From assembly GCA_022641835.1 (NCBI GenBank), contig CP048718.1:1136651-1200650 (forward strand): a stretch of 64,000 nucleotides of DNA, read 5' to 3'. A program made the position numbers and the translations under genes. How positions within the stretch are numbered: the first letter of the stretch is position 1; the number at the start of each line of letters is the position of its first letter. The DNA is from Petasospora fabianii. Taxonomy: Eukaryota; Ascomycota; Saccharomycetes; Phaffomycetales; Wickerhamomycetaceae. This document shows positions 27,248-37,116 of the stretch, piece after piece. Under the pieces are notes generated by a model, which worked only from the letters and a program-made list of their open reading frames with translations, did no database searches and was not told the origin of the DNA.

Positions 27248-30007
27248 TCAATTTTGAACCCGTCTCAAAGTACTCTCCCTAGCACTTAAACTCTTTAACA
27301 GACTCTTGTAAAGCCCCTTCTTCAAATTGAGCCTCATCTTCTCTTGTCCCATACTGACAAACACTTGACTAAGATAATTGTATTTCAACCCAGCATCATC
27401 AATAGACTCAATAACATGCTTCACTTCTTCAGATCTTTCCATCCCGGTCTGTAACGAATGAAGTGACAACTTGGAAGAATTCATAAAGCTAATGGCAAGT
27501 TTAGCATCGTGTCTTAGTAACCACATTCCAGTTTCACGTATAAAGTCTTCATCATCGCACTTCTTCGAAAGCTCACAAATGATGTGTAATGAATTTGAAG
27601 AGTCAAACCCTTGATCAGTGATCTTGTGATCAATGAGATCTTTATGGATAAAGATGGCACTCTTTGGATCTTCACGTTCGGCCAGGATGTGTGCAAGGGC
27701 AAGATGCTTCCCATGTTGTCTTAAGATTGGAACCACATCCACCGTGGACACCAATTTTAGAGTCTGTATTAGTTGTTGTGGATTGTTAAGATGATAAAGC
27801 ACTGTGGTTAGTTCGATTGTAGTGATGATATCTCGATTCTCAACTGTATGCTTTAAGAGCCATCTCTCTAGGAAGAGCTCAAAGAATGTGTTAAATGCGG
27901 TCTCTTTGATACTCTTCTTCAGTTTCAGAGTTAATGGAATGAGACCTCCAAATATGTATAGATCACCATGGACTTCATATCCAAAGATGTAAATGAGAAT
28001 GCGTGGGTCAACTGTTCCATTGGTCCAAGATTCCAGTGCTGCGTCGTAATTGTGTTCAACAAGTCTCATGAGAGATATCTGAAGATTGAGATACTCGACT
28101 TCAATCACAGTGAGTTCTGTTGTTGCCTGACTCGTGGCCAGTTCCTTCTCTAATACTTTGAGTTTGGTGACGGACTGAAGTCTCTCGAGTCGTGATTGAG
28201 GTACAATAGTTTCCACAAGGGTCTCAGAGAAGATGAGGATAGAGCAATTGACTTTGGAGATCGATTGGGCAAATTCAAGTTCCTTAGCATCTCTCTTAGG
28301 GTCTGACCCGACGATTGGTTTCAATGTGATCAATTCAACAAGTTTCGAGGCATTGACACTTAACGGTTCTACTCTTGTGACATGGACCCTTTGGGAGAAA
28401 GTCCAAGTTTGAAGCTCTCTTTGATCTTCAAGGGAATAAGCAGTGACTTCACCACCTCTCACAGTTATTACGGCATCGTTATCAGTGAGCACAGAATCAG
28501 GATACGACAACATGGGGATTGTGCCCCTCGAGACGTCACCTTTCAAGTTGACAACGAGACCCATAGCTGGATCATCTTTTCCTGTACCACAAACAAGCAG
28601 GAATTCATCGTTACCGACACCTTCGACGAACGGAGTAAGTTGATGCTCTTGGTCAATGTCAGCACCTGCAGTATTCACTGGGAAGAGCATTGTTCTGTTG
28701 TTGAGCTCTCTTTTGATGTCCAGCATCTCGTATTGTCCATCATGAGCTACAATGAGTCGATCTTCACGTCTCTTACCGCAGACGGCACCGCATTTGACAT
28801 CTTTAACGAGTCTAAGAGCCTGTTTGGTAACGTTAACGATACGAAGTTGTGACTTGGTCATAATGGCCACATGAACACCATTTTCGTCACATTTAGCTTT
28901 CTTGTTAAGATCGAGTTCGATCGAATTGACATCCTTGATACGTCCAATACTCAGAGGTGAAGTGGATGGAAGGGAGAAACATTGGAGCAAGTGTCCCGAG
29001 ACAACTAATAGTATCTGGAGAGTTGGGAGGGGAAGGAAGTGTGTAACGGGGAGCTGACGTGTCTGATGGAAGGGCACCTGTGAGGTAAGAATGTATTCTG
29101 GGCCAGGGATTAGTGTGTATGTGAGGATGTACCCTAGAGACGTACCAAGATAAATGTTGTTCTCGTGATGACAGATGGCTGTTGTTGTACCTAAGGATGG
29201 TGGAACTTCGAGATGGAGACTCGACAAGGTGTATGGTCCCGGTGTTACTGAGAGGAGTGTGTTTAGTGTCTTATCTTCTATCTCTTGCTTGTCTTCTGGT
29301 GCAATATCTGAGCTTTTAACCGGCTCAACTTGAGCATCTTCTGTCTCTTCGACATTGGGCGTGCTGATCTCAGCAACTTCTTTATCAGTAGCCAAGCTCT
29401 TCCCATCAGGCTTTGTCTCGTCTTCAGCCTTGTCAGCATTATCAGCTGTGTCATCTTGCACCTCTGTCACTGTGTCGGTGTCTTTCTCTTGCTCTTGCTC
29501 TTGCTCTTGTTCTTGTTCTTGTTCCTCATCTCCATCATCCGGACCAGCCTCTACTGTAGACTCGTGAGTCTCCTCCTTCTTCTCGGACTGAATGTCGTTA
29601 TCTGACGGTTCAATTGAGTCTCGGTTAGCACTGTTGTCATCTTCAGAACGTATCACAGTGTCATTATCGTCATCATCGTCGTCATCGCCATCATGATCAT
29701 TTGGTATCTCGATAGAAGTAGGATCAGCCGGGGGAGTCTCAGAGTTTTCAGTGCGGTCCTGCCGCATCACATCCTCTTCACCTGTCTCAACACTAGACTC
29801 TGGCACTTCTGATTGCAATTTCTCTCCTGTTACACTCTTAGTGTCATCTTGTAGGTCATTTTGTGTATCATTTTGCGTGTCTGTTTGACTCGTGGTGTCT
29901 TCTGCATGCTTAACACTTTGCTCGACTTCCTCCGCCACCACGGACTCTCGCGAGGATTGTTCTTGACTCTTCTTAACCTTGGATTTGCTCTTCTTCTTCT
30001 TGGCCAT
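27248..30007 (-). CDS. VPS3: CORVET subunit Vps3 (CNH-domain tethering protein)
   Basis: The 919-residue product has a CNH/beta-propeller-like domain starting near residue 255 (ICHHENNIYLGTSLGYILTYTL). A helical C-terminal half carries DPRILIYIFGYEVHGDLYIFGG, which matches the Vps39/TGFBRAP1 family and fits Vps3, the Vps21 (Rab5)-binding subunit of the endosomal CORVET complex. The alternative is Vam6/Vps39; the length and the DPRILIYIFG segment favour Vps3. The first 240 residues are unusual: a Lys-rich start followed by a long Glu/Asp/Thr low-complexity tract with an EQ repeat. The ATG at 30007 is the first in the frame. Confidence 0.72.
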   Translation of the reverse strand: MAKKKKSKSKVKKSQEQSSRESVVAEEVEQSVKHAEDTTSQTDTQNDTQNDLQDDTKSVTGEKLQSEVPESSVETGEEDVMRQDRTENSETPPADPTSIEIPNDHDGDDDDDDDNDTVIRSEDDNSANRDSIEPSDNDIQSEKKEETHESTVEAGPDDGDEEQEQEQEQEQEQEKDTDTVTEVQDDTADNADKAEDETKPDGKSLATDKEVAEISTPNVEETEDAQVEPVKSSDIAPEDKQEIEDKTLNTLLSVTPGPYTLSSLHLEVPPSLGTTTAICHHENNIYLGTSLGYILTYTLIPGPEYILTSQVPFHQTRQLPVTHFLPLPTLQILLVVSGHLLQCFSLPSTSPLSIGRIKDVNSIELDLNKKAKCDENGVHVAIMTKSQLRIVNVTKQALRLVKDVKCGAVCGKRREDRLIVAHDGQYEMLDIKRELNNRTMLFPVNTAGADIDQEHQLTPFVEGVGNDEFLLVCGTGKDDPAMGLVVNLKGDVSRGTIPMLSYPDSVLTDNDAVITVRGGEVTAYSLEDQRELQTWTFSQRVHVTRVEPLSVNASKLVELITLKPIVGSDPKRDAKELEFAQSISKVNCSILIFSETLVETIVPQSRLERLQSVTKLKVLEKELATSQATTELTVIEVEYLNLQISLMRLVEHNYDAALESWTNGTVDPRILIYIFGYEVHGDLYIFGGLIPLTLKLKKSIKETAFNTFFELFLERWLLKHTVENRDIITTIELTTVLYHLNNPQQLIQTLKLVSTVDVVPILRQHGKHLALAHILAEREDPKSAIFIHKDLIDHKITDQGFDSSNSLHIICELSKKCDDEDFIRETGMWLLRHDAKLAISFMNSSKLSLHSLQTGMERSEEVKHVIESIDDAGLKYNYLSQVFVSMGQEKMRLNLKKGLYKSLLKSLSARESTLRRVQN

Positions 30008-30672
30008 TTCAATCGAGCACAAGTGTCTTTTCTGTTGAGTTTAAGTGACAGTTTATGAAGAGATTTGAGATTTGGGGGATCAAAGAAGGAGTCTCCGGAG
30101 ATGTCGCATTTTTCGCGGGGCTGACCATAATGAAGTGTATATGGGTGTCTATTAATGAAGAGTTAATAGAGTTATAAGGGGGTTATTAGATTAGGTTAAG
30201 AGTGAGATGCCTCTCTGTTGGAGGAGTTGGCCGAGGCAGAGAGCTGGTGGTGGATTGGTCATCAAATAGTATGATTGTGGGGCTCAGAGTTGTCGGGAGT
30301 TTATCTTGATCTCTCATGATAGTAGTTAAGCTTCAATAGGAGAGCTCAAAGCATTGTTATTTAGATAAGCAAGATATACCTACTCGACTTCTCCTATCAC
30401 TACACTTAGAGCCATAGTTAGGTAATTGAATTAGACCCTTGGGGAATCTATCTCTACAACACGTACGTACAGAATATATCATATCATCAAAAGCAAATCA
30501 AATAGAACCTATAGCACACACACCACACAGAGATAAGACACTTGTTGAAAACTGTCACTCTATGAACTAAAAGTGTGCAGATGCAAAAAAAAACACAACG
30601 CACACAACCAAATGGAAGACTCTCATCTTCATTTATGCTCTTTTTATCGTTTTATCTTGTTTCAATCTCTGA
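30008..30672. other. intergenic region between ERG6 and VPS3
   Basis: This 665-bp region lies 5' of VPS3 and 3' of ERG6. It includes TTTTTCGCGGGG at about 30109-30120. I see no further gene or repeat. Confidence 0.7.
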
Positions 30673-31791
30673 TTAGTCCTTAGCATCCAATGGCTTCTTA
30701 GCAACAAAGAGCATCATTGGAGTGAACAACTTCTGCTTACCACCGGCAACAAGACCAATAGCAGCCTCCTCCAAGGCATGAGTAACCTTTTGAGAACCAG
30801 CTGGGGCAAGACCCAAAGTCTCCATGAATCCAACAAGGGCAGTGGTGATCTTTCTACCAAAGGAAGAAGTTCTGAAGAAAGTGGTGATATCGTAAAAGGA
30901 CTGAACGTACTTCCATTCACCGGTCAATGGGTAATACCATGGAATCTCATCACCCATATCAGCAAGATCCTTTTCAAAATCAATCTCGAAACCGACATTC
31001 TTCAAAGCTTGTCTAGCAACGTCAACTTTGTACATCTTTGGAATACCATCACCAAGTTCAATTTCATAAGCAATCTTTCTGTGTTCTTCGTTTGTCTCAT
31101 CGTACTTATCGGTCATGACCCACTCATAAACACCAAATACACCACCTGGCTTCAAAACTTTGTAGATCTCACCATAGACACCTTCGAGAACAGGAGCATG
31201 CACAGTGGCCTCAATAGCATACACAGCGTCAAAAGTCTCTGGCTCAAAGTCCATCTTCATGAAATCACCCTTAACAAACTTCATCTTTGATGCAAGACCA
31301 GCCTTCTGAGCATACCAATTAGCCTTCTCAATCTGGTAATCATTGTTGTTCAATCCAGTAATGTTACAGTTTGTAAATCTGCAAATCTCACGAGCTGGAC
31401 CACCAACACCACAACCAACGTCCAACACGTTCCAGCCGTCCTGGATGCCAATCTTGGAGGCAAGGTAATGCTCATGACGAGCAGTGGCTTGAGTGAATGG
31501 TTCTCCCTTGTAGAATCTTGAGAAATGGAAAGATGTACCCCATCCATACTCATAGAAATCAGTGACAACGTTATAGTATGAGTGTGTACTCTGGTTGTAA
31601 TCCTCTAAACGTCTCTTTTCAGCCTCATCGTCGGTCTTACCGTCCCAATGCTTAAGGTAGGCATCAACAGCAGCCTTTTGAGCAGCTTTGTCCTTGGAGA
31701 GAATGGCACCCATTCCACTCTTGGAACCAGCGTTTTCACCGTGAAGGGCCTTTGAGAACTCGGCCTGTGTCTTTCTAAGATCAGCTGACAT
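30673..31791 (-). CDS. ERG6: sterol C-24 methyltransferase
   Basis: The 372-residue enzyme transfers methyl from SAM to C-24 of zymosterol in ergosterol synthesis, at lipid droplets and the ER. It carries the sterol-binding region [18 protein letters not shown] near residue 80, the SAM motif [15 protein letters not shown] near 130, the AIEATVHAP segment, and VLKPGG. Length and order match Erg6. The ATG at 31791 ([12 protein letters not shown]) is used because the longer frame has no earlier ATG. A large gene-free region lies upstream. Confidence 0.97.
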
Positions 31792-32707
31792 CGTCTGTTT
31801 TAGTGTTGAAACTTTTTGCGATGGCAAAATCAAGAGAGAGACAAGAAGAGAAGAGTGGAAAGAGGAATGCCCACCGCTGTTTTTTTCTTTGGTGTTGACG
31901 GTCCAAACCGCGTCTGGGAGCTAAACGAGATGCCGAACGCGTCGAGGCGCGAGATCGGGAACGAGCAAGAGAGTTCCTCGCGATATGGCGCTAAACGAGA
32001 GATACGAACCCCATTATGTTATATATATAAATGTTATATGAGCATGGGTGGAGTTTTCGTATCCTGTTTTGGTAATATACAGAACTTGCTATATATATCA
32101 TACAGTTAGTATGTCTGGGACATACATGCTTGGACAAATAAGCGCGTATTATATATCATAATGGCATCAGAGTTCATCTATATTTTTTATCATATAGCAT
32201 TGCGTTCTTTGCGGTGGATCTATATATATATATTATATATACTTATTCCCGCGGCACTTCGTGTAGGACTTAACTTGCTGTTAGTCCCTTGATATATATT
32301 TATATAGCACGTCGTATAGGAACTACGGTTGTTCTAGTCCCTTACCTTCTACTCTGCAATTAGTGACACAGAGGACTAATCATATACTTATGTCCTTCAA
32401 AGACCAAGGCAAACACTGTCTCTCTAATAGAGTTAGTTGAGCCAACGTAGTAATCTCTGTAAACATCAGGGGTAAAAAGTTTAAAAAGGTAAATATTGGA
32501 GTAGTGCTCCTACCGTAACACCGCCTATTCCCGAGGCCCATGTCTTTTGTGGCAAACTAATTAGTTCATATGTTTCCCAGGTGAAACCCATAAAAATCCT
32601 TATGAGTCCCCTAATACCCATTCTCAGTTACAACTCTCTTTCCAAATTTGCCAAACAGCCATCATGGAACCCTCAGTGCTGAGTTTGAAGTCACAAACGA
32701 CATGGTC

Positions 32708-33415
32708 TAACATAGGCTCAATAGCTATATGTGTCCTTGCATGGTAGTCATTTGGATTAGCTATAAGTCAAGGCAGGAGTGCTAACTGCCTCCATTCCAT
32801 TTGTCGTTGTACTCCATATGAAACACTGGGATCTATGAAAACTTTTAACCCATTTGCAGTAATATTGTGGTCATGTTCAGTTTTCAAGTTAGTTGGGATG
32901 AGAGTGGTGTCTTACCACGTATTTTCATACGTGTGAACTTGCATTTTAGGAGTGTTGCGGTACTCCTATCTATAGGTCGAGGGGAAGAGCTTAACTGCTT
33001 TTCATTCACTATTTTCACCTACTGATAAGACTCTGAACTAACGATCCACTTTCCCCCTCTCCGAGCCTTATGGGTCAATGGACACTGTGGTTCTCCGGTG
33101 CTACGTCTGATGGGTTATTGGTTTAACACATGTTTGCATGTGTGTCCTTGCATGGTATGTCTTTGACGTATCTATAAGACAAGGCAGGTGAGCTAACTGC
33201 CTCCATTCCAGTATCTCGTCTTGACAAAGCACTGTAGCTATGAGCTCTCACAGGGCTCTTTGGACCACCGTTACTGTTGAATGTTCATGTATTGACTCAG
33301 TTAAGTTGCTGGATGTGATGTATAATCATGTGTCTTCACATGTGTCCTCGCTTTGTCGAGGCTGATGAGCTAACTGCCTTCATTCATTACTACCGCACTC
33401 TGACAAGGTACTGAA
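32708..33415 (+). repeat. four tandem ~200-bp units with conserved hairpins
   Basis: Units end with a related box (GAAACACTG at 32820, GATAAGACTCTGAA at 33024, GACAAAGCACTG at 33223, GACAAGGTACTGAA at 33402), spaced 204, 199 and 179 bp. Each contains a variant of GCTAACTGCCTCCATTC. Units 1 and 3 share TGTGTCCTTGCATGGTA and a GGCAG...CTGCC hairpin. Units 2, 3 and 4 begin with tetraloop hairpins of different sequence but full pairing: CACGTAT/ATACGTG (32916-32933), ACACATG/CATGTGT (33126-33143) and CATGTG/CACATG (33327-33342). This is a duplicated, structure-constrained element; I do not recognise the family. Confidence 0.6.
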
Positions 33416-33429
33416 CACCCATGTCATAT

Positions 33430-34340
33430 CTTAGGCTGTCAGTTGACAGCTTCTCAGAGAGGTGGATTGGTCTCAGGGGAATCGTCCACATTTGGTTACC
33501 ATTCGAACCGGAGTTGAAGGATGCCCAGCCAAAAGAAGAGTTGCGAGCAGGGAGGAGTCCGTTGCCTTATATCACACCCAGCTTGTATATACTACATGTC
33601 TAGGGTGCCCTAAGGGCCAGTGCTTCTTCTGGGTCAGTGTCTGCATGGAGGTCGGTGTTATACCTCTTAGTTGAAGGACTCCGTACACCTCCCGCTGGCC
33701 CCATCTAACGAGGGGGAAGCCAGTATGGCCTCGCACATGACGGTGGACTAGACCTACCACGACAGTCATCGGGGTGTGAGCTTCCTTCTTGGGACAGTGA
33801 CATGGGGGCTCGTGTGCACCTCATTAGTAGGCTCCGGATTCCCCTGTGCCTGGCAACCCGAACGGGGGAAGTCGGCAAAACCTAGGTGGTGTCCCTCGCA
33901 GACAGGTGGAGAAATCCTGGAGGGTCATCCCAGGATGTCGGACACTTCTCCCCCCAGGTAAAGACTACGGAGATGGTCGTCAGAGTGCCACCTAGGATGG
34001 AATAGGAAGGAATTGGTGGTCTCTGGACACGACTATCCCGAATAGTCCCTGGCAGTGGGAAAAGCCTTACGCTGACCCAAAAGTAGATCCGCGGCCCCTG
34101 GGAAGAGGTACTAACGTTGAACATAGACAGGGTGGACAGAGTGATGGATGATACCCCGGTGGTGTTGTTCGTCCCCCAGGTGGGGATACTCAGGTGGCCA
34201 TGAATCGTCATAGGCAGTGAGGTGATGCCTCTCACCATAGTGAGGCATCGGACAAATTCACTGGGGCCCAACTCTTTGCACACAACCTGTAGTTTCAGCG
34301 TAGAGGCCACCATTAAAGCAAGAGGCCCTTCCTTGCTATA
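33430..34340. ncRNA. candidate structured non-coding RNA region
   Basis: This 0.9-kb block is visibly more GC-rich than its flanks and packed with local inverted repeats: CTGTCA/TTGACAG near 33436, TCCTGG/CCCAGGA near 33915, GACTAT/ATAGTC at 34031-34047, and GATGCCTC/GAGGCATC at 34223-34249. No long ORF has family similarity. A TACTAAC sits at 34109-34115 with AG 11 bases on. It could be a long ncRNA that includes the upstream tandem units. It does not show the hallmarks I would expect for U1, U2, U6, SRP or 5S RNA. Strand and ends are unknown. Confidence 0.3.
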
Positions 34341-35865
34341 TTAATGGTCCCAGTGGGGTCAAAAATGTTGGGTAATCATGGGGGAGCGGGGGCATGTCCG
34401 ATTTTTCGTAGGTATAGGGTCATAGCTCGCTATGTTGTAGGAAGGCGTTGGAGAGAGAAGGAGGGCAGTTATGCATCTCTAGTGTACATGTAGCGATCCA
34501 TTAGGCTCGAAGTAGTAATATAAAGCTTGTTTCGTGCTTGTAGATGATGCGCTGGCCGTGTTATGGTAAAATGAAGTAAAAAACGGGTGGTGTCATGACA
34601 CGTCAGGGAGACATGTAGTCTTTAATTTGCGCGTATATGACCGAATACAGGACTCTAAAGTAAGTTTAAGTGGTTGGTATATGATCTCAAGTGCGAAGTT
34701 ATGTGAAAGAATAGTTTTAGGCCGTGAAACGTGGTTGTCTACTAGAAATTTAATGGAGTGTAACCGGATACGCTCTACTATCGTGACAAGACACCATTAT
34801 GGTCTCCACATTCAGCCTCTCTGGGGACAGATGAAGTGATTTTAGCTTATAGGGCTGTAATAGGAAGGCAGGAAATGACACTGAAGACAAGTACGGGCTG
34901 TTTCAACAGCGTTTCACGACATATGGTCCATTTTAACGATCACAGAAGCTGCGTGATTTTGGAAAAGGAACGCCACGCAACTGGGACAATCATATACAAA
35001 GGAATTGAGCCACAAAGCTGTATCCTGTTGCTGGTATAGTATCTGGCACCTCTGGCTACGCTCTTCATACAGTTTCTGGTGCTAGTTCTCGTTAGTCATT
35101 GCGTATGATTGTAATACACTGGTATAAGACAATTTGATCTAGGAAGCCGTACCAGCTGCAAAGACACATGAGAGATATACCTGATTAGCCTGTCCTATGA
35201 TTTAGGAATAGTATGATTCAAGAGCCTGTAAACTACATGTTATATTGATAGTATTCCCAAGCTGTCAACCGAGGGAGCTAGTGTATATGATCGTCTGGTA
35301 TTTCAGTTGATTTCGTCAATCTTTTCTGTACTTTCCTGCACTTTTCGCGAAGAATATGCACTTGTATCGTAAATATATGCACTGTATTGGTTATGCATTA
35401 GTATGCATATTTGTGCATTGATGAAATAAGCTACGCGCTGTCTGTCATAATGCTTGATCGAGCTTCCTGTCATGCTCCAAAGTGGACTGATGTGCGATTA
35501 AAAGTTTAGTGGTATGGCCTCTGTCTGAAAATATTGAGGATACATATATATCTTAACTTGTACAGCATCATTAATCACTGGCTATTGCGAAATTATCATA
35601 AAATGAGATGTGGTGTCCGGATAACATCGAAGAGCTGTTTTGACCCTTTCAATCATCGATTGGAGCTTATACTATTGATTCCAGTGAGACTATTGTTGTT
35701 CTTTGATTACGTACAGCAGAGGAAAAGAGACACATCTCCTACTACATGAGATATTGTGGGTACAGACGAAAACAATCTTTGATAACTTGAATAACTACGC
35801 ACGGAAGTAAAATATAGTAATATAGTACAACTATCTATTTTGTATAGAGGATATGAACCAACAGC

Positions 35866-37116
35866 TTACTTAGCATTGATTTCTGGACAAACACGGGCAC
35901 CTTGGAACCAGATTCTAGCAGCAGCACCGGAACCAATCAATGTCTTCACCATTGGCTTCTCACCAGCGGAACCTTTACCCTCTTGTGCTCTTTCCTCAGG
36001 GTTTGGATCAAACTTCTTGATAGTACCAAATTGCTCCTTAACAAGCTCGTAATGCTCCTCAGAGAGTCTCCAAACTTCAAACATCTGGAAATAGAGTCCA
36101 TCCTTTGGATCATAGTGGTATTTTCTGAAGAAGTTCAAATGTCTCTCAATCTCATTTTTACAAGCATTGGCAGTAGATTCTGGTGCCTTATCACCAACTA
36201 CCAATAAGTAATCAGCCAAACCTTCAATGAGAAGTTGGATGAAGTATGATGGATCACGCCAGAATCTTCTTCCAGCTTCGACCCAGTCTCTGCAAAAGAG
36301 TGACTTGTTACGATTGGTGGCAGCAGCGGCCAAATCATTAGCATGTTTAAGCCATTTTTCATCCTTTGTAAACTCATACAAGAGGGAACAGGCACTGAGG
36401 GCACAACCAGTGTTATAAGTCCACTTCATACCATTAGGACCGTCACTGTTCTTATCAATACCATCCAACACGGTGTACTCTTTCTTGTCCAACAAGGTAT
36501 CCAACAACCAATCGGTACACTTAGCACCAAATTGGATATATGTCTGAGCCTCATTTGGAATGAACTTGGCCAATCTCAAACAAGCTAAAGCAGTCTCACT
36601 AGTGGAGATAGCACTGATGTATGGCTTATCTCTGTGCCACAGAACACCACCTTGAACCTTGGCACGCTTCTCATTATTCCAACCACCCATCAAATATCTG
36701 ACAAGCTCACGACCACGATCCAAGTATTCCTTCTTTTGAGTCACTTCATAAGCAGTGATCAATGCTGAGGCAACTTGTGCGTCATCATCGTAATAGATAT
36801 CACCGTTACCGTTAAAGTTCTCAACGGCACAGTAACCATACTTATCTGGGGATCTGTAACGGTACAATGCATTAACAGCTGGTTCAATCAATGGGCCAAG
36901 CTCATCTGGATAGATTCTAGCACCATCAACAATGGCCTGTGTAGCAACAGCAACTGACCAAACATTAAATTTGTTTTCATCACCATAAGTACCAGAACAT
37001 TTTGGACGAGGAGAGATAAAAGTTCCCTTTTCTGGACTCCAAAAGTGTCCCCACATGTTTCTCACAACATTATAACCTTCGAGATTCGGATTGTTAACAA
37101 TTGGGTTCTCTGGCAT
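35866..37116 (-). CDS. GH76-like six-hairpin glycosidase, apparently intracellular
   Basis: The 416-residue protein looks like a glycoside hydrolase family 76 (alpha-1,6-mannanase) type (alpha/alpha)6 barrel. It has VWSVAVATQAIVDGAR, an acidic DIYYDDDAQVASAL segment near residue 108 in the position of the family's catalytic Asp pair, a GGVLWHRD motif, and WTYNTG. Unlike the cell-wall enzymes Dcw1 and Dfg5 it has no signal peptide or GPI signal, so it is probably cytosolic. The substrate is unknown. Codon use is even and strongly biased, suggesting good expression. It ends beside the 4-kb gene-free region. Confidence 0.65.
   Translation of the reverse strand: MPENPIVNNPNLEGYNVVRNMWGHFWSPEKGTFISPRPKCSGTYGDENKFNVWSVAVATQAIVDGARIYPDELGPLIEPAVNALYRYRSPDKYGYCAVENFNGNGDIYYDDDAQVASALITAYEVTQKKEYLDRGRELVRYLMGGWNNEKRAKVQGGVLWHRDKPYISAISTSETALACLRLAKFIPNEAQTYIQFGAKCTDWLLDTLLDKKEYTVLDGIDKNSDGPNGMKWTYNTGCALSACSLLYEFTKDEKWLKHANDLAAAATNRNKSLFCRDWVEAGRRFWRDPSYFIQLLIEGLADYLLVVGDKAPESTANACKNEIERHLNFFRKYHYDPKDGLYFQMFEVWRLSEEHYELVKEQFGTIKKFDPNPEERAQEGKGSAGEKPMVKTLIGSGAAARIWFQGARVCPEINAK

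Follow-up and report, generated by a model that had tools for sequence, protein, structure and literature searches.

Four degenerate units in a yeast genome are the 5' part of a non-coding element of ~2.8 kb that occurs at no fewer than 14 genomic places. The computed features of this element are those of a repeat family with a modular order, a homogenised core, and conserved base-pairing whose tolerance of G.U pairs is specific to one strand. We lean towards reading the element as the gene for a multicopy, long, structured non-coding RNA with cloverleaf-like 5' modules, which would be transcribed from the + strand. In the predicted fold of each unit, a stalk encloses three parts: the opening hairpin, a second arm carrying an inner hairpin, and then a third hairpin. 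Three to four of these modules precede a GC-rich folded core, and predicted + strand folding continues into the 3' arm for its first ~400 nt. The predictions support a homogenised family whose folded RNA would come from the + strand and be perhaps 2 kb long, this length being proposed because + strand folding reaches that far into the arm. The putative transcript, whose ends we infer along with its transcription, would be read from left to right (+).

The window, meaning the whole stretch of DNA analysed, is the 64 kb at the end of contig C4 in a 12.34-Mb, 16-contig genome. CTG is read as Leu in this yeast, as seen at two adjacent codons for the conserved LL of a Rat1-like protein, and the best PDB match of its ATP synthase beta chain is 5lqx, an Ogataea structure. 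On either side of the array of units lie a gene for an ERG6-like sterol methyltransferase (30673-31791) and a GH76-like gene (35866-37116). An earlier note on this DNA had described four degenerate head-to-tail units, and all were found on the + strand where it had placed them (Table 1). Its spacings of 204, 199 and 179 bp are approximately right, given that the anchors yield 203, 208 and 177 bp; in U4 just the latter half of the anchor is matched, at 33355, which corresponds to 33178 in U3. The opening hairpins it named likewise exist (CACGTAT/ATACGTG at 32916-32933, ACACATG/CATGTGT at 33126-33143, and CATGTG/CACATG at 33327-33342), as does the inner pair CCTTG/CAAGG of U1 and U3, which is CCTCG/CGAGG in U4 (33346-33361). 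Taken alone, these pairs are weak evidence, because the stems of U3 and U4 are built from one pair of hexamers in swapped order, which leaves U2 as the only stem that really differs, and because the change in the U2 stem comes without an intermediate. An opening hairpin is also present in U1, beyond the three units for which it had been reported, and here the window copy differs by a double change from five other U1 copies. No protein frame runs through the array, as had been stated; the longest stop-to-stop frames starting inside 32708-33415 comprise 62 aa.

Table 1. Features of the window copy of the element (window positions; R1 is a covariance model built from U3)
Feature	Positions	Strand	Evidence
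Window copy of element, outer homology limits	32647..35472	+	BLAST vs 14 loci
Anchors of units U1, U2, U3	32727, 32930, 33138	+	sequence match
U1 module	32697..32816	+	R1 covariance model, 74 bits (L048:4848-4967)
U2 module	32902..33025	+	covariation, RNAalifold, covariance model
U3 module with extended stalk	33097..33233	+	RNAalifold; R1 140 bits (model built from this unit type)
U4 module	33312..33406	+	R1 50.8 bits, E 2e-11
Homogenised GC-rich core, non-coding	33600..34440	+	97% identity, 13 copies
Strongest local structure in core	33953..34077	+	sliding alifold
3' arm, class A	34450..35300	+	class identity comparison
Degenerate ~16-bp motif (CCATYGTGTATGATYGT type), reverse orientation	34986..34999	-	class alignments
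~16-bp motif, forward copy (GTCATTGCGTATGATTGTAAT)	35095..35115	+	class alignments
3' terminal motif TGCAC-TTTTCGCGAA-ATATGCA-ATCGTA-ATATGCA	35337..35381	+	Blast of 35300-35480

Homology searches, in which only the best candidates were scored so that 14 loci is a lower bound, identified at least 13 copies with a full-length core and one decayed copy, distributed over seven of the 16 contigs. Among the matches listed, contigs C1, C3, C5 and C8 carry two copies each, C4 carries four, and C2 and C9 carry one each. A query from a copy with the other class of 3' arm (class B) recovers the identical 14 places. For the window copy, BLAST of 30000-37000 places the left limit at 32647-32653 and the right limit at 35468-35472; in several other copies the left end is not sharp. 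The units are followed by the 840-bp core, then by ~850 bp of arm and finally by the terminal motif. Apart from one 175-aa frame, the 14 loci have no common gene neighbourhood, as judged from ORFs of at least 130 aa. This frame lies, 95% identical, beside two of the C4 copies (L041:2768-3292 and L044:2760-3284), within ~1.3 kb of upstream sequence that these copies have in common, and L044 has a second frame (1290-1841) that is 27% identical. Frames of this type gave no significant Pfam match, the best being DUF7907 with an E of 0.03, below the cut-off.

An iterated profile of the units yields 68 matches in the 14 loci. In all 14, U2, U3 and U4 lie in this fixed order 5' of the core. U1 is present at six loci, and a conserved block with a fairly sharp left edge, M0, either replaces U1 or accompanies it in eight sets. 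Four loci (L036, L037, L039 and L044) carry a second U2-U3-U4 set ~1.1-1.2 kb upstream, and L042 carries an additional upstream U3-U4 pair. Because the order is fixed in all loci and extra sets occur upstream, the units are old internal duplicates that are now distinct and are inherited as a block. The decayed copy (L047; C2:713536-714651) has lost parts of the core, and the remainder is 83-87% identical to the window copy. Its helices are breaking, which makes it a natural control.

The proposal that compensatory changes reveal selection on RNA structure was evaluated with the paralogous units, of which 18-19 usable copies each of U2, U3 and U4 are available. Overall the proposal is partly supported; it is borne out for U2, which has a cloverleaf-like fold consisting of a closing stem and hairpins at 32916-32933, 32948-32967 and 32984-33003. 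Among 18 copies, L047 included, 98.7% of the 450 cells at its 25 pairs are standard, and 20 cells in four pairs are double changes. None of 500 shuffles reaches the observed number of paired cells, the number of double-change cells, or the covariation score (0.179, vs 0.123 +- 0.009 when shuffled); two of the five measures, namely double-change pairs (50/500) and pair types (500/500), fall within the shuffles. A tree-based null, in which the inferred substitutions were re-placed on the tree with L047 excluded, equals the observation in 0 of 1000 trials for pairing and 0 of 1000 for double changes. The closing stem, which RNAalifold adds, has G.U, A-U and G-C alternatives, and the inner hairpin shows stepwise G.U intermediates at pairs 68-85 and 69-84. 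The opening stem alternates between CACGTAT/ATACGTG and CATGTGT/ACACATG, a swap of two pairs for which none of the 18 copies shows an intermediate. This swap could be a single template-switch event; template switching during replication can produce such hairpin changes (PMC8794818).

Evidence from the other unit types is more varied. In U1, the opening hairpin (32710-32714 with 32728-32732) is accompanied by an outer stem (CCTTG at 32735 with CAAGG at 32769); six copies give alifold z values of -6.1 (+) and -3.2 (-), and double changes occur at two pairs. In U3, the stalk is formed by GGTGCT at 33097 and an AGCACT ending at 33233, and encloses hairpins at 33126-33143, 33154-33172 and 33183-33201. 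RNAalifold assigns 43 pairs to 18 U3 copies, with departures that are mainly G.U, including those in the extended stalk and the closing stem. U4 lacks the inner ~40 nt and retains hairpins at 33327-33342 and 33346-33361 and a closing stem (GTGATG at 33315 with CATTAC at 33385), with alifold z values of -3.2 (+) and -2.0 (-). Covariation is not significant for U3 alone (P 0.44 in the tree-based null) or for U4 alone (32/500 shuffles; tree-based P 0.06-0.09), and for these two units the compensatory-change argument did not hold by itself.

A single model recognises all four unit types. R1 was searched against the 14 loci only (138,614 bases) at E values up to 1, and its 63 matches comprise 19 U3, 19 U4, 17 U2 and six U1 units, one M0 block (E 0.035), and one site outside the elements (L043:596, E 0.1). 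The 62 matches inside elements are all in the sense orientation, and U2 is matched with 24.2 bits (E 6e-4). Aligning the 57 matches with E up to 0.01, which derive from 13 loci, gives 93.8% of 1170 cells paired and double changes at 12 of 21 pairs, with a covariation of 0.456 vs 0.187 +- 0.010 in an alignment that is fitted to the model structure. Covariation beyond chance, which marks a structured non-coding RNA gene, was thus found for U2 and for the 57-unit alignment.

A pair that is kept as G.U on one strand is A.C on the opposite strand, so that departures from Watson-Crick pairing carry information on the strand. For Watson-Crick-majority pairs of U2, U3 and U4, the G.U:A.C ratio is 34:5 cells, or 17:5 distinct changes (p 0.008, one-sided), when L047 is left out, and 40:9 cells, or 21:9 distinct (p 0.02), when it is included; L047 contributes four of these nine A.C cells. 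The - strand control matters because the + strand structures come from a program that is aware of G.U pairs. Without L047, folds of U1 through U4 give 49:13 cells and 28:12 distinct changes (p 0.008) on the + strand, vs 11:18 cells and 10:15 distinct changes (p 0.89) on the - strand. Counted more crudely, over every perfect consensus stem, the ratios (94:64, 22:11 and 51:54) show little or no asymmetry. Consensus folds lie below all 40 of 40 column shuffles for the four unit types on the + strand, and for three of the four on the - strand. With 12 shuffles, the z value of U2 is larger on the - strand (-7.7) than on the + strand (-4.0), and the raw energy favours the + strand. Folding 32700-33430 as one RNA gives z -3.68 (+) and -2.10 (-), and on neither strand does any of 20 shuffles reach so low a value; 130-nt windows in eight of the 13 full copies give a mean z near 0 across the array, U2 excepted. 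Together with the covariation of U2 and the covariance model shared by the units, the + strand G.U bias argues for selection on RNA structure.

Strand-specific folding extends beyond the units. The 991 nt from 33450 to 34440 fold with z -2.18 on the + strand (0/20 shuffles) and -0.88 on the - strand (4/20), and the G.U:A.C ratio of the core is 41:18 on the + strand. Sliding alifold, run with 15 shuffles per window and yielding z values that are meaningless where the shuffle spread is almost nil, gives -7.4 (+) and -4.0 (-) at the strongest local structure, where per-copy z values are -3.4 and -2.7 from eight copies that are hardly independent. Sliding consensus folds also peak on the + strand in the first ~400 nt of arms A and B, and the first ~420 nt of the window arm fold better on the + than on the - strand. 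In these first parts, own-strand G.U:A.C counts are 26:11 (+) and 14:24 (-) for arm A, and 16:8 (+) and 9:6 (-) for arm B. The outer part of arm A gives 32:11 (+) and 30:21 (-), and that of arm B shows no strand preference (20:11 on +, 23:10 on -; both strands fold alike). Near a position equivalent to window 34139, one copy (L040) has an AT-rich insertion of ~50 nt in an otherwise conserved core.

Divergence is distributed unevenly along the element. Averaged over pairs of copies, identity is 0.87-0.90 in the array and 97% in the core among 13 copies, the latter value being the same within or across arm classes. Identity drops abruptly at ~34450. The arms of the 13 full copies fall into class A (six, window copy included) and class B (seven), with identities of 0.738 within A, 0.715 within B and 0.450 between them, which is chance level except in short islands. 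The idea that the arms are unrelated 'idiomorphs' was dropped once these common islands were seen. Among the islands is the ~16-bp motif, which recurs in both classes and in both orientations. Eleven full copies match the terminal motif, which contains TTTCGCGAA and a repeated ATATGCA, at core+1850 to +1909; weaker partial matches also occur, as does one in the decayed C2 copy. The TTTCGCG of this motif resembles the SCB/MCB cell-cycle promoter box. Core SNPs are mosaic, and of 528 informative site pairs 206 violate the four-gamete condition, a rate that is weak evidence alone because the saturated arm fails similarly (7897/17955). Since core identity does not depend on arm class, we infer that gene conversion between copies is the best explanation of the uniform core. 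Such exchange would hold the core close to uniformity and let the arms diverge, and copies that recombine are not independent of one another.

The chief rival to an RNA gene is a non-autonomous retroelement, similar to a LARD or a retrozyme, whose long non-coding RNA would have to fold for packaging and copying by the enzymes of another element, so that the structure would be maintained to serve the element itself. Conserved RNA folds are known from LARDs, and the family studied here is non-coding, gives a folded RNA from one strand, and lies in at least 14 places among unrelated genes. Three copia elements in the genome encode a reverse transcriptase domain (L052, L053 and L054; two are identical over the 3210 bases compared), and a LARD is described for W. 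anomalus (PMC12711049). We nevertheless regard this origin as unlikely. The window copy has no terminal direct repeats (30000-37000 compared with itself and with L009 gave unit-unit matches only), the 3.7-kb copia pieces, which are not whole elements, share no sequence with the 14 loci, and divergence as uneven as 97% in the core and 45-74% in the arms is unlike simple dispersal. The possibility that the units are a decayed transposable element or gene family, which the earlier note had named as fatal to its view, is thus partly realised: they do form a dispersed repeat family, but one without likeness to the resident copia elements as far as these were compared. Retrozymes carry a hammerhead ribozyme, for which there was no Rfam match of any kind in the window or the 14 loci; hammerhead models are included in Rfam.

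A cis-acting DNA element, such as an array of protein binding sites, a boundary or an origin, in which the palindromes serve as binding sites or cruciforms, is still less probable. The occurrence of the ~16-bp motif in both orientations and the retention of the terminal motif across diverged arms would fit such a function. So would a 17-bp inverted repeat (CCATCGTGTATGATCGT/ACGATCATACACGATGG) around 55 nt in class B arms (e.g. L046, columns ~522-613), which has the look of a DNA site more than of an RNA stem, its G.U and A.C departures being equal (5:5). A DNA function does not account for stems that change sequence while pairing stays, or for an excess of G.U over A.C departures in + strand folds only, and a centromere present once per chromosome, as in a monocentric yeast, is contradicted by the four copies on C4 and by nine of 16 contigs having none among the matches. 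Least credible, to the point of being very improbable, is an old neutral repeat whose hairpins stay perfect, in the absence of selection, through template switching and gene conversion. The U2 opening-stem swap and the extensive core mosaicism, shared with the saturated arm, are what this would yield, but template switching predicts neither G.U intermediates nor strand asymmetry, nor closing stems over 80-120 nt with G.U, A-U and G-C alternation.

Recognising a long structured RNA is difficult, as a single sequence seldom holds enough evidence; here, one genome supplies enough copies of U2, U3 and U4, sufficiently diverged, to show which pairs are kept. If the RNA gene that we favour is transcribed, it would represent an undescribed multicopy RNA family in yeast and a clean case of concerted evolution maintaining an RNA with internally duplicated modules; if it is a retroelement instead, it would be a mobile element whose window copy lacks terminal repeats. 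By analogy with large ornate RNAs (PMC12286853), our guess is that the RNA would serve as a protein-binding or self-associating scaffold. More tentatively, and with doubt prevailing, it might represent a large ornate RNA of a new class, encoded in the nucleus of a eukaryote: a ~2-kb scaffold formed by tandem cloverleaf modules and a rigid core, with over twelve dispersed genes that have exchangeable 3' arms and are kept uniform by concerted evolution.

Comparisons with known systems were also made. Rfam 15 at gathering score gives no match in the window or the 14 loci, a permissive scan of 4151 bases has a best E of 1.2, and ARAGORN (bacterial-code settings) reports no tRNA gene in either set. 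A conserved 18S stretch, used as an rDNA check, has no match in the assembly. Several candidates were rejected: tiny introns (GTATGT ... GCTAAC ... CAG in U3), whose 5' signal varies among U3 copies; a C/D snoRNA (TGATGAG and CTGA in U4), whose boxes are absent from other units and lack an Rfam match above threshold; a hammerhead-like CTGATGAG in U4, without an Rfam match; and a protein-coding gene, given that a 143-aa core ORF occurs in just three of 13 copies and has no Pfam match. Literature searches gave no description of such an element, which does not establish its absence from print.

The large ornate bacterial RNAs GOLLD, ROOL and OLE resemble the element in being non-coding, hundreds of nucleotides to kilobases long, and rich in junctions. 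They are bacterial or phage RNAs, whereas the element is nuclear, resides in a yeast at 14 or more loci, and has tandem 5' modules. Their function was long unknown (PMC12286853). LARDs are likewise dispersed, kilobases long and non-coding; the element differs in its lack of LTRs in the window copy, its uneven divergence, and its lack of likeness to the copia pieces compared. In budding yeasts, centromere regions are described as large intergenic regions with sequence common to chromosomes, including a 200-bp motif repeated on some chromosomes of K. capsulata (PMC12711049), whereas the element reaches four copies per contig and is missing from most contigs among the matches. Telomerase RNA is a single-copy gene, in contrast to the 13 or more full copies here. 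In Saccharomycotina, this RNA exceeds 1000 nt, evolves fast and is poorly annotated (PMC6115765). The only RVT_1 match found lies in an open 863-aa frame (L051; C9:339762-340112), which possibly encodes a putative telomerase reverse transcriptase.
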